From Acidimicrobiia bacterium (GTDB lineage: Bacteria; Actinomycetota; Acidimicrobiia; Acidimicrobiales; AC-14), in the NCBI GenBank assembly GCA_023264995.1, contig JAHFUR010000005.1, positions 91,156-155,155 on the forward strand: DNA of 64,000 nt, in the 5' to 3' direction. The position numbers and the translations under genes were made by a program. Of this stretch, positions 682-57,150 are shown one piece after another. The stretch's first letter is position 1. Every line of letters starts with the position of its first letter. The notes beneath the pieces are model-generated. The model saw only the letters and a program-made list of their open reading frames with translations. It was not told the DNA's origin and searched no databases.

Positions 682-1551
682 TCAGTCGGTCTTGCTGAAC
701 CGCCGAACCGCGATCGCGAACGCGACCAGCCCGAGGGCGGCGAGCATCACGAGCTGGAGGGCGAACGGCACGGGCCACCCGCCCCACGTCAGCTGGTGGT
801 CCAGCACCTTGGCCGCCGCCGGCGTGAGGTCGAGGTGGGTGAAGAGCACGTGGCGCATGGGGTTCACCGCGTAGGTCACCGGGTTGACCTTGGTGGCCAG
901 GGCCAGCCACGTCGGCAGGCCGGCGGTGGGGTAGAGGGCGCCCGACAGGAACATCATCGGGGTGATCACGGTCTGGATCACCGGCATGACCGACTGAATG
1001 TTGGCCACCCGCGCGCCCAGGAGCAGGCCGAACGCGGTGATGGAGAGCGAGGCGAGGAAGAGCACGCCGAGCAGCTCCAGCATGAGCACGGGCGAGTACG
1101 GCACACCGCACAGCCCGGCCAGGGCCAGGATGACCACCGCCTGCGACGTGGCCACGATGGCGCCACCCAGGCACTTGCCGGCCATGATCGACGAGCGCCG
1201 GATGGGCGCCACCAGCATCTCCCGCAGGAAGCCGAACTCCCGGTCCCAGACAACCGAGACGCCGGCGAACACGGCGGTGAACATCACCGAGGTGGCCAGC
1301 ACGCCGGGGAAGAGGAAGGTGCGGAAGTCGACATTGCCCGGCCCGACGTTGACGACCCGCGACAGGCCCGAGCCCAGCACGAACAGCCACAGCAGGGGTT
1401 GGACGAGGCCGGCGGCCAGCCGGCGCCGGTCCTTGAGCCACCGGAGCAGCTCGCGGTGGCAGACGATGCGGGCGGCCCGCAGGTCGGCGGCCAGGCCCGA
1501 CGGGGGCCGGTGGACGTCGGCGACGGGAAGTGGGGTGACGGTGGTCGTCAT
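682..1551 (-). CDS. ABC-2 type transporter permease (DrrB-like)
   Basis: 289 aa with multiple TM segments (LLWLFVLGSGLSRVV, FPGVLATSVMF); directly downstream of a DrrA-like ATPase. Confidence 0.85.
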   Translation of the reverse strand: MTTTVTPLPVADVHRPPSGLAADLRAARIVCHRELLRWLKDRRRLAAGLVQPLLWLFVLGSGLSRVVNVGPGNVDFRTFLFPGVLATSVMFTAVFAGVSVVWDREFGFLREMLVAPIRRSSIMAGKCLGGAIVATSQAVVILALAGLCGVPYSPVLMLELLGVLFLASLSITAFGLLLGARVANIQSVMPVIQTVITPMMFLSGALYPTAGLPTWLALATKVNPVTYAVNPMRHVLFTHLDLTPAAAKVLDHQLTWGGWPVPFALQLVMLAALGLVAFAIAVRRFSKTD

Positions 1552-1647
1552 CGCCGGCCCCTGAACACGCCGGCGGTCATCGCCGGCCCCTGAACACGCC
1601 GGCGGTCATCGCCGGCCCCTGAACACGCCGGCGGTCATCGCCGGCCT
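1548..1647 (-). repeat. 29-bp tandem repeat (3 copies plus partial) at the ATPase/permease junction; each copy is a 10-codon micro-ORF MTAGVFRGRR*
   Basis: Direct reading: tcatcgccggcccctgaacacgccggcgg x3 (1548-1576, 1577-1605, 1606-1634), then tcatcgccggcct. Confidence 0.95.
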
Positions 1648-2663
1648 CGGAACATCGCCGGGATCTCGGAGCCGGGGGCGGCCTCCGCGTCGCGGATGGT
1701 GCGACCGGTGTAGGTCATGAACACGTCGTCGAGGGTCGGCCGGGTGACGCTCACCGACCGCACGGGGACGCCGAGGTCGGCCAGGAGCTTGGGGACGAAG
1801 CGCTCGCCGTCGGGCACCTGGAGGACCAGGGCGCCGCCCGCCGACGTCGCCTCCAGCCCGAAGTTGCGGTTGATCGCCGCGGCCGCAGCCGCCCCGTCGT
1901 CGGTCTCCAACCGGATGCGGTCGGTACCGATGGCCGCCTTGAGGGCCTGCGGGGTGTCGAGGGCGACGATGCGGCCGGCGTCCATGATGGCGATGCGGTC
2001 GCAGTTCTCGGCCTCGTCCATGTAGTGGGTGGTGAGGAAGATGGTCAGGTCCTCCTGGTGGCGGAGCTCGTTGAGGTACTCCCAGATCGACGCCCGGGTC
2101 TGGGGGTCGAGGCCGACGGTGGGCTCGTCGAGGAACAGCACCCGGGGCGAGTGGAGCAGGCCCCGGGCAATCTCCAGGCGGCGCTTCATACCTCCCGAGA
2201 AGGTGCTGACGTCCTTGTCGCGCCGGTCCCACAGCCCCACGAGCTCGAGGACCTGCTGCATGCGGGTCTCCAGCCGAGCGGCGGGCACGCCGTAGAGCTG
2301 GCCGTGGAAGCGCAGGTTCTGGGCCGCGCTCAGGTAGGTGTCGAGCGTCATGTCCTGGAAGACGAGGCCGATCTCGCGACGCACGTCGTCGCGCTGGGTG
2401 GCCACGTCGTAGCCGGCCACCACCGCCCGGCCCCCGGTGGGCCGCAGGAGGGTGCAGAGCATGTTGATGGTGGTCGACTTGCCGGCGCCGTTGGGGCCGA
2501 GGAAGCCGAACGTCTCACCGGCCCGGACCTCGAAGTCGACACCGCAGACGGCCTCGACCTCGCCGAAGCGCTTCTGTAGGTTCTCGACCCGGATTGCCGC
2601 CGGGCGTCGGTCCTCGGTATCCATTGGGAATACCAACGATAGACACTTCCCATCGAATGTCAA
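1635..2663 (-). CDS. Daunorubicin-resistance-type ABC transporter ATP-binding protein (DrrA-like)
   Basis: 342 aa; Walker A GPNGAGKST, signature STFSGGMKRRLEIA, Walker B VLFLDEPTVGLD. Confidence 0.93.
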   Translation of the reverse strand: MTFDGKCLSLVFPMDTEDRRPAAIRVENLQKRFGEVEAVCGVDFEVRAGETFGFLGPNGAGKSTTINMLCTLLRPTGGRAVVAGYDVATQRDDVRREIGLVFQDMTLDTYLSAAQNLRFHGQLYGVPAARLETRMQQVLELVGLWDRRDKDVSTFSGGMKRRLEIARGLLHSPRVLFLDEPTVGLDPQTRASIWEYLNELRHQEDLTIFLTTHYMDEAENCDRIAIMDAGRIVALDTPQALKAAIGTDRIRLETDDGAAAAAAINRNFGLEATSAGGALVLQVPDGERFVPKLLADLGVPVRSVSVTRPTLDDVFMTYTGRTIRDAEAAPGSEIPAMFRGRR

Positions 2664-5153: not shown

Positions 5154-6952
<1,799 letters not shown>

Positions 6953-34664: not shown

Positions 34665-35386
34665 CCGTGGACTTCGCCCGGCTCGGCCTTCGGGCGGGCG
34701 ACCGGTTGCTCGACCTGGGCTGCGGGGGTGGGCGGCACGCCTTCGAGGCCCACCGCTTGGGCGCTCACACCGTGGCCTTCGACCGCAACGCCGGCGACAC
34801 CAAGGACGCGGCCGCCATGCTGGCCGCCATGCGCCTGGCCGGTGAGGCGCCGGCCGGCGCCCTCGGCACGGCGGTGAACGGCGACGCCCTCTCCCTTCCC
34901 TTCGCCGACGGCGCCTTCGACCGCGTCATCGCCGCCGAGGTGCTCGAGCACGTGCCCGCCGACGGTGCCGCCATGGCCGAGCTGGCCCGGGTCCTGCGCC
35001 CCGGCGGCACCCTGGCCGTCACCGTCCCCCGCTGGTTCCCCGAGCAGGTGTGCTGGGCGTTGGCCGACGAATACCACGCCCCCCATGTACCCGACGGCCA
35101 CGTGCGCATCTACCGCCGGCGCGGGCTGGCCGGCGTCGTCGCCGGCGCCGGCCTCGAACCCCGGGGGTCGCACCATGCCCACGCCCTCCACTCGCCGTAC
35201 TGGTGGCTGAAGTGCGCCCTCGGCCTCGACCGCCCCGACCGCTGGCCGGTGCGCACCTACCACCGCTTCCTGCTGTGGGACATCACCAAGCGGCCGGCGC
35301 TGACCCGCGCCCTCGACCGGGCCCTGAACCCCGTGCTGGGCAAGAGCTTCGTCCTCTACGCCGTCAAGCCGGCCGTAGCCACGTGA
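34661..35386 (+). CDS. Class I SAM-dependent methyltransferase
   Basis: GDRLLDLGCGGGRHAFEAHRLG...VIAAEVLEHVPADGAAMAELARVLRPGGTLAVTVP; start TTG 34661 (TTGA overlap) or GTG 34667. Confidence 0.9.
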   Translation: MTVDFARLGLRAGDRLLDLGCGGGRHAFEAHRLGAHTVAFDRNAGDTKDAAAMLAAMRLAGEAPAGALGTAVNGDALSLPFADGAFDRVIAAEVLEHVPADGAAMAELARVLRPGGTLAVTVPRWFPEQVCWALADEYHAPHVPDGHVRIYRRRGLAGVVAGAGLEPRGSHHAHALHSPYWWLKCALGLDRPDRWPVRTYHRFLLWDITKRPALTRALDRALNPVLGKSFVLYAVKPAVAT

Positions 35387-35486
35387 CCGGCCCGGGAGGC
35401 CGGTCCAGCGGACATTCACGGGGCGGAGCCTCGTGACCGGCCCGGGAGGCCGGTCCAGCGGACATTCACGGGGCGGAGCCTCGTGA
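35383..35486 (+). repeat. 50-bp tandem repeat (2 copies plus GTGA) at the methyltransferase/toroid-protein junction; each copy is a 17-codon micro-ORF
   Basis: gtgaccggcccgggaggccggtccagcggacattcacggggcggagcctc at 35383-35432 and 35433-35482, then gtga. Confidence 0.95.
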
Positions 35487-40219: not shown

Positions 40220-40654
40220 TCAGCCCGACCAGCGGTAGACGTTGGTGTCGCGCTCGACGAAGCCGAGGCGGCGGTAGAGCCGGTTGGCCGCCTCCCGCGT
40301 GGGCCGGGAGGTCAGGTCGACCGTGCGGGCGCCGGCGGCCGAGGCCCGGTTGAGCGCCTCCCGGCACAGGATCTCCGCCACCCCCCGGCCGCGCGAACCC
40401 TCGTCGACCACCACGTCCTCGATCCAGGCCCGGAGCCCGGTCGGGATCCGGAACAGCACCAGGGTGAGGCTGCCGATCAGGCCCTTCTCGTCGTCACGGG
40501 CCATGAGCAGCACCGTCGCCGGCGACCGCACCATCTCGGCCAGCACCTGCCCGCTCGGCGCCGGCGCCGAGCGCGACAGCTGGGGGGTGAGCAGCCGGAA
40601 GGCGGCCACCAGCTCGGGCGTGACCGCCTTGGCCTCCTCGACGAGAACGGTCAC
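40220..40654 (-). CDS. GNAT-family N-acetyltransferase
   Basis: AWIEDVVVDEGSRGRGVAEILCREALNRASAAGARTVDLTSRPTREAANRLYRRLGFVERDTNVYRW. Confidence 0.93.
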   Translation of the reverse strand: MTVLVEEAKAVTPELVAAFRLLTPQLSRSAPAPSGQVLAEMVRSPATVLLMARDDEKGLIGSLTLVLFRIPTGLRAWIEDVVVDEGSRGRGVAEILCREALNRASAAGARTVDLTSRPTREAANRLYRRLGFVERDTNVYRWSG

Positions 40655-40721
40655 TGGGACGCGCTCCCGAGGGGAGTGCGTCCCAGTGCATGCTCGATGG
40701 TCGGGCCTCCGGGGCCGGCCA

Positions 40722-42266
40722 CTACAGCTCGGGCACCGGCACGGGCGGCGGCGGGCCGGCGTAGTGGGCGCTCGGCCGGATCAGCCGGTTGTCGGCAGCC
40801 TGCTCGAGGATGTGAGCCGTCCAGCCGATCACCCGGCTGGACGTGAACGTGGGCGTGAAGAGGGTGCGGGGCAGGCCCACCTTGTCCATGACCACGCCGG
40901 CGTAGAACTCCACGTTGGCGTACAGGTTGCGGCCCGGCTTGAGCTCGGCCAGCACGTCGACCACCGTCTTCTCGACCTGCTTGGCGAAGTCGACCATGTC
41001 GCCGCCCAGGCGCTCGGCCACGCCGCGGAGCATCAGCGAGCGGGGGTCGTCGGTCTTGTAGATGCGGTGGCCGAAGCCCATGATCCGCTCGCCCTTCATG
41101 ACCGAGTTGCGGATCCACTCCTCGGCCTTGTCGGGCGTGCCGATGGCGTCGAGCATGTCGAGCGCCCGGCTGGGGGCGCCACCGTGCAGCGGCCCGGAGA
41201 GGGCCCCGATGGCGCCGACCACGGCCGAGCCCAGGTCGGCGCCGGTGGAGGTGATGACCCGGGCGGTGAAGGTCGACGAGTTGAACCCGTGGTCGGTGGT
41301 CGAGATCAGGTACTGCTCGATGGCCCGGGCATGCCCGGGCTCGGGGACCTCCCCCGTGAGCATGTACAGGTAGTTGGCCGCGTAGGCCAGGTCGGGGTGG
41401 GGGTCGATGGGGTCGAGCCCCTGGTTCAGCCGGTACAGCGCCATGATCAGCGTCGGCATGACCGCGCTGGTCTGCATGGCGTTGGCCCGCAGCGTCACCT
41501 TGTCGATATCCAGCCACGACCTGAAGTCGAGGGCGTAGGCCAGCAGCGAGTAGGCCGTACGCAGCGCGTCGAGGGGCACGAAGTGGTCGCCGGCGGTGGC
41601 GATGGCGGGCAACAGGCCCTTCACCGCCGGTGGGATGGTGCGCAGCGACCGGATCTCCTCGGCGAAGGTCTCCCGCTCGGCCGGGGTCGGGAGGTGGCCC
41701 TCGTAGAGCAGGTGCCACACGTCTTCCAGCGACCGCTTCTCGGCCAGCTCGACGGCGTTGTACTGGCGGTAGTGGTAGAAGCCCTCCTGGCCCCGAACGT
41801 CGCCCACCTCGGTCTCGGCGACGACCACCCCTTCAAGGCCACGCCGGGCCTCGATGGCCCCCGGGTGCTCGATGCGCAGGACCTGGGCCAGCTTCAGCAT
41901 GTCGCGGATCGACACCACGCCGACCAGCGCCCCGGCGTCGACGACGGGCAGGTGGCGGTAGCCGTGGGCGTTGAGGCTGTCGAACGCGGCGAGGACCTCG
42001 TCGTTGGGGCCCACCGTGTTGGCATTGGGCGTCATCCAGTCCGACACCCTGGCCGTCGACAGGTCGGCGCCGGCCGCGCCGGCCCGGACCAGGTCGCGCT
42101 CGGTGAGGATGGCCACCGGGGTGCCGGGGTCGACGACGACGATCGAGCCGACACCCCGCTCGATCATGCGGGCCGACGCCTTCGCCAAAGGGTCCGACGC
42201 CGAAGCTGTCAGGACATCCGTGGTCATGACCTCGGCGACCGTGCGTACCTTGGCTCCGTCAGCCAT
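40722..42266 (-). CDS. Citrate synthase-like protein with N-terminal tandem CBS domains
   Basis: CBS pair VAEVMTTDVLTASASDPLAKASARMIERGVGSIVVVD...SDWMTPNANTVGPNDEVLAAFDSLNAHGYRHLPVVD, then citrate synthase VWHLLYEGHLPT...LHGGAPSRAL...MGFGHRIYKTDDPRS. Confidence 0.9.
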   Translation of the reverse strand: MADGAKVRTVAEVMTTDVLTASASDPLAKASARMIERGVGSIVVVDPGTPVAILTERDLVRAGAAGADLSTARVSDWMTPNANTVGPNDEVLAAFDSLNAHGYRHLPVVDAGALVGVVSIRDMLKLAQVLRIEHPGAIEARRGLEGVVVAETEVGDVRGQEGFYHYRQYNAVELAEKRSLEDVWHLLYEGHLPTPAERETFAEEIRSLRTIPPAVKGLLPAIATAGDHFVPLDALRTAYSLLAYALDFRSWLDIDKVTLRANAMQTSAVMPTLIMALYRLNQGLDPIDPHPDLAYAANYLYMLTGEVPEPGHARAIEQYLISTTDHGFNSSTFTARVITSTGADLGSAVVGAIGALSGPLHGGAPSRALDMLDAIGTPDKAEEWIRNSVMKGERIMGFGHRIYKTDDPRSLMLRGVAERLGGDMVDFAKQVEKTVVDVLAELKPGRNLYANVEFYAGVVMDKVGLPRTLFTPTFTSSRVIGWTAHILEQAADNRLIRPSAHYAGPPPPVPVPEL

Positions 42267-57028: not shown

Positions 57029-57073
57029 CAGGCCCAGGACGACGGCGAGGAGCAGGAGCTTGCGCAGGAGGGG

Positions 57074-57150
57074 GAGCTCAGCTCTCGACGGTGGTCATGG
57101 CGAGAGCTCAGCTCTCGACGGTGGTCATGGCGAGAGCTCAGCTCTCGACG
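57074..57150 (-). repeat. 30-bp tandem repeat (2 full copies plus 17 bp) between the NIL-domain and DUF2993 genes
   Basis: gagctcagctctcgacggtggtcatggcga at 57074 and 57104, partial at 57134. Confidence 0.95.

Follow-up and report, generated by a model that had tools for sequence, protein, structure and literature searches.

Why do three identical 29-bp units stand at the very point where the gene for an ABC transporter ATPase gives way to the gene for the permease, and what would they mean for ribosomes that pass from one to the other? The locus lies in a stretch of 64,000 nucleotides (the window), taken from the one draft genome that represents the host species, an uncultured actinobacterium. 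We refer to this genome as G000; G001 and G002 are its congeners. The features of the locus are as follows.

682..1551, minus strand: ABC-2 permease (Pfam ABC2_membrane 2.5e-36)
1552..1580, minus strand: 29-bp unit 3, with micro-ORF 1580-1548, the stop of which overlaps the permease start (direct reading)
1581..1609, minus strand: 29-bp unit 2, with micro-ORF 1609-1577 (direct reading)
1610..1638, minus strand: 29-bp unit 1, with micro-ORF 1638-1606 (direct reading, TRF)
1635..1661, minus strand: ATPase 3' end homologous to the 29-bp unit (24 of 27 columns, one gap; TRF array 1547-1661)
1635..2624, minus strand: ABC transporter ATPase, DrrA-like, ending ...EIPAMFRGRR, source of the unit (Pfam ABC_tran 1.8e-33, DrrA1-3_C 1.6e-09); the start at ATG 2624 is our assignment, and the longest frame begins at TTG 2663

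On the minus strand the ATPase gene ends ...CCG GCG ATG TTC CGA GGC CGG CGA TGA, with its stop at 1637-1635, and direct reading of what follows gives three letter-identical units, ATGACCGCCGGCGTGTTCAGGGGCCGGCG, before the permease gene is reached. Each unit encodes MTAGVFRGRR and a stop codon that shares 4 bp (ATGA) with the next start, and the stop of the third micro-ORF overlaps the permease ATG at 1551 in the same manner. The first-pass annotation had described three identical MTAGVFRGRR units chained by ATGA, and the minus-strand sequence confirms that description. TRF reports an array of period 29 and 3.9 copies (score 207), in which the partial fourth copy is the end of the ATPase gene itself. 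Direct reading also places a weak SD-like AGGGG in each unit, 6 nt 5' of the next ATG. The 102-bp stretch that holds the array occurs once in the whole genome. Ten-codon ORFs such as these fall under the size usually called by gene finders.

We do not attribute the array to chance: the whole 64-kb window has no more than three exact tandem arrays of period at least 12 (this one at 1547, 29 bp; the others at 35382, 50 bp, and at 57074, 30 bp). All three sit at gene junctions. Four further exact arrays of period at least 22 were found in ~727 kb more of the genome (L186, L189, L194, and L197), each at the stop codon of a gene; these local-array counts rest on a sample of genome stretches of about 790 kb. 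The window also contains a TPP riboswitch at 6824-6952 on the minus strand (Rfam RF00059, 58.5 bits).

Origin of the unit and gene-tail copies at other junctions

The alignment of the 29-bp unit with the 3' end of the ATPase gene scores 37, whereas the best of 2000 shuffles reaches 24. This upholds the earlier proposal that a duplicated ATPase 3' end, together with a start codon, makes up the unit. The three units match letter for letter, whereas the ATPase tail differs from them; either the first copy had already diverged when amplification took place, or homogenisation has since made the units alike. The array is absent from all of the ~100 homologous ATPase/permease junctions that we compared, two of them from the same genus; the same-genus junctions are plain and direct within 5-7 nt, reading ...CGGAGGTGACCCGATGACC in G002 and ...CGGAGGTAGCGATGACG in G001. 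To judge from these sequences, the array is a lineage-specific tandem duplication. In Modestobacter excelsi, the start region of the homologous permease (L048:2938-2973) has a 15-bp in-frame repeat with several alternative start codons.

Copies of a gene's own tail are found at other junctions of this genus. Elsewhere in G000 (L194:18168-18265, minus strand), the tail of a FabF-like ketoacyl synthase gene is copied into ATGA/GTGA-coupled micro-ORFs 5' of a carboxyltransferase gene; these read MTGGDHRASLVLTPPS (47 bp) and MTGGDHRAGLVLTPYSG (50 bp), each ending in a stop codon, and the same junction is a direct GTGA in the congeners, including G001. In G002, the gcvPA/gcvPB junction (L145:2941-2970, minus strand) holds a 29-bp copy of the gcvPA tail, LTTSSDKVVR plus stop, and the overlap is direct (ATGA/GTGA) in G000 and G001. 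The corresponding junction of G003 (L273) has a 27-codon ATGA-coupled micro-ORF, and the other relatives that we read have none. A further case lies in the window itself.

57074..57150, minus strand: 30-bp array of 2.6 copies between a NIL-domain gene and an LmeA-like gene (exact-array scan)

This array contains two micro-ORFs, MTTVES plus stop, that copy the tail of the NIL-domain gene (VES plus stop), and its counterpart in G002 reads MTAFES plus stop, once (L173). The LmeA-like gene (about 57050-57065 of the window, minus strand; L172, L173, and L175) appears to start at CTG: in G000, G001, and G002, CTG CGC AAG follows an in-frame stop with no ATG, GTG, or TTG between, and in G004 the gene has a CTGA overlap. 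Also seen were tandem arrays of 25-27 bp, each starting from the TAG stop of a gene whose 3' end it copies (L189:318-374, L190 from 9677, and L197:16606-16684); they have no coupled start codon.

Gene-tail near-copies show no enrichment when the threshold is loose, with 5/752 (one of them a spurious antisense call) against imperfect repeats in 15/3008 control segments inside genes. A coupled micro-ORF between two genes is not rare: a crude criterion finds one at about 15-25% of NTGA junctions, outside the genus as well, and this genome shows no clear excess of such sandwiches (0.25 against 0.15-0.19 in others). What is unusual here is the presence of three perfect copies in one coupled chain, together with companion arrays in the genome.

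Proposed passage of ribosomes from the ATPase to the permease

Ribosomes that terminate at a -4 overlap are able to reinitiate on the downstream ORF (PMC12548453; PMC6728339), and -4 spacing is among the most efficient for translational coupling (PMC12548453). We propose the following course of events. First, a tandem duplication would have taken the last ~25 bp of the ATPase gene plus the overlapping start codon. The copy would then have diverged slightly before being amplified to three identical units. A duplication across an NTGA overlap would produce chained, coupled micro-ORFs on two conditions, an open frame and a length of 2 mod 3, and 29 fits; each unit of such a length and frame is a micro-ORF with a stop that overlaps the following start. 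As we argue from the sequence, the tail of the micro-peptide would then repeat the upstream C-terminus automatically. The upstream protein would be unchanged, as its stop is still met in the first copy, and so would the downstream protein at any length of insert, as its start is still in the last copy. Because the stops and starts are chained, ribosomes finishing the ATPase could be relayed on to the permease, passing by termination-reinitiation through three ten-codon relays. An insertion at this junction would be tolerated because the -4 translational coupling is preserved.

A precedent is offered by the mycobacterial interspersed repetitive units (MIRUs; Supply et al., 1997, as described in PMC12548453). 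These seemingly mobile repeats enter at start codons and bring with them an ORF coupled at -4; the coupled ORF likely lets insertion occur with minimal impact on the gene (PMC12548453). The reading that we prefer, and consider reasonably likely to be correct, is that the 29-bp array has expanded an ATGA operon junction in a way that preserves coupling and is probably near-neutral, acting like the micro-ORFs of MIRUs. That the micro-ORFs are translated, that the coupling works, and that expression changes little we infer from the arrangement of the junction. With no more than two or three gene-tail arrays known from the NTGA junctions studied here, the unit length of 2 mod 3 could be luck, at one in three each. 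Furthermore, serial reinitiation through three micro-ORFs might lower the permease substantially, which counts against the near-neutral reading.

If each micro-ORF costs one reinitiation step, the array could be a copy-number attenuator, in which selection acts on the number of units and this number determines the ratio of ATPase to permease. The chain architecture of the three micro-ORFs would suit such a device, as would the weak SD-like motif before each next ATG, and arrays of a dispersed family (described below) differ in copy number between species at one orthologous junction, with three to four copies in G002 (C208) and one remnant in G000 (C59). However, the predicted free energy needed to open the permease start region stays between 13.8 and 15.2 kcal/mol from 0 to 5 units, with no trend, and the junctions of the congeners are without any unit; we regard the attenuator as possible but unlikely. 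The permease start is predicted to be well buried, with an opening cost of ~14 kcal/mol where the congeners need 7 and 12, and the RNA of the array folds no better than shuffles (z -0.88). Since the opening energy is independent of the number of units, equilibrium folding lends no support to the suggestion, made in the first-pass annotation, that copy number tunes ATPase:permease coupling, although a cumulative loss at reinitiation could still lower the permease despite the flat folding prediction.

A dispersed family of coupled elements in the same genome

A second kind of coupled repeat, mostly 50, 65, or 68 bp in length, occurs at dozens of gene junctions in this genome. In the window it is represented as follows.

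35383..35486, plus strand: two 50-bp copies at the GTGA junction between a methyltransferase gene and the next gene, with the micro-ORF VTGPGGRSSGHSRGGAS plus stop twice
40651..40722, minus strand: single 72-nt member (covariance model R1, 61.5 bits, E 1.6e-10)

From the stop codon of the preceding gene (NTGACCGGCCCGGGAGGCCGGTCC), the element runs through GCATTCACTGG and then a second hairpin as far as the GTG or ATG with which the following gene starts (CCAGTGA); it reads as a coupled micro-ORF, (M/V)TGPGGRS..HS...VDQ plus stop. With one mismatch allowed, CCCGGGAGGCCGGTCC, which is common to the 50-bp array at 35382 and other sites, has 50 matches in the genome, compared to 2 for the reversed control pattern. 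Counted without mismatches, the matches come to 31, 14, and 21 in the three genomes of this genus and to 13 over the remaining 57 genomes. An NTGA stands at the expected place in 42 of the 50 core sites, and 39 of the 50 have a short ORF in the coupled frame that ends in NTGA, against 1 of 50 in the control frame; of these 39, 28 lead directly into a frame of at least 100 codons and another 10 into a following unit. The covariance model finds 49 copies in G000, 25 in G001, and 33 in G002. Beyond the genus it reports six in G006, which belongs to the same family, two in G019, and one in G005, and it finds none in 54 other genomes. In the congeners the site at 35383 is empty (GTGA or ATGA). A search of Rfam gave no family matching the element. 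The 50-68-bp family is undescribed and almost entirely restricted to one genus.

The micro-ORF frame is open in 14/14 full-length units. No selection on the peptide was seen in this family, codon position 2 being the most variable and synonymous changes not being in excess. In the second helix of the element, TCAC or TCAT lies opposite the downstream start codon, and the pair formed by the first base of that codon covaries in three sequences, the G of GTG with C and the A of ATG with U. This modelled pairing suggests that the element may keep the start sequestered until a ribosome passes; a helix like the one that covers the start codon would also be formed by the terminal inverted repeats of a mobile element.

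A broader proposition would be that the operon junctions of this lineage accept inserts mainly as NTGA-coupled micro-ORFs, either mobile (MIRU-like) or derived from the tail of the neighbouring gene, and that serial micro-ORFs are a selected, copy-number-variable device that sets downstream expression. Taken as a whole, we find this distinctly unlikely.

Could the 29-bp array instead belong to the dispersed family, as a degenerate member inserted at the ATGA? The two share an architecture (NTGA start, GC-rich core, NTGA end, and a length of 2 mod 3), the 29-bp unit begins ATGACCG, and members of the family as short as 23 and 29 bp exist. Given that the covariance model is silent on the array even at E<10 with filters off, that the unit aligns to family units no better than shuffles and to the ATPase tail far better, and that the unit is found at a single locus, we reject membership on the alignments and the covariance model and consider it very improbable. 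It is also very improbable that the array is an assembly artefact of what is a draft, probably metagenome-assembled genome in 81 contigs, since 7/7 exact arrays of period at least 22 in ~790 kb lie at gene 3' ends, as random artefacts would not, comparable arrays occur in two separately assembled congener genomes, and an 87-bp array is shorter than a 150-base read.

Relation to known systems

Like the MIRUs, the 29-bp array is a short tandem repeat at an operon stop/start junction, where it forms an NTGA junction with an ORF coupled at -4. In contrast, MIRUs are dispersed and look mobile, whereas the 29-bp unit is confined to one locus and derives from the neighbouring ATPase gene. As the array is not interspersed, with one match in the genome and none by the family model, we class it as a local, gene-derived variant of the MIRU type. 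The dispersed 50-68-bp family has many loci, an NTGA with a coupled ORF, and tandem arrays of variable copy number, and on the structural description given in PMC12548453 it fits the MIRUs much better than the 29-bp array does. Its host lineage is another matter, as the nearest named relative is an Acidimicrobiia MAG, unlike the mycobacterial hosts of MIRUs.

Other systems bear a more limited resemblance. Termination-reinitiation coupling at ATGA (PMC6728339, PMC10666635) likewise involves an overlap between genes for partner proteins, here the ATPase and the permease, but a single overlap is the normal case, and this junction strings together four, with three ten-codon relays. Short leader ORFs that deliver ribosomes (PMC12548453) also have a stop that overlaps the next start, but the 29-bp unit has neither a stalling peptide nor a conserved leader and is a repeated copy of a gene tail. 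The palindromic hairpins and many copies of the dispersed family recall REP-type repeats (PMC3733652); however, REPs are described as extragenic palindromes, whereas the dispersed family lies at NTGA and keeps its frame open.

Two independent routes, a dispersed element and the local duplication of a gene's own tail, lead here to one coupling-preserving micro-ORF design. The shared architecture suggests that repeats of the MIRU type extend beyond the mycobacteria. Furthermore, the natural series of 0, 1, 2, and 3 coupled micro-ORFs could serve to gauge the cost of repeated termination and reinitiation.
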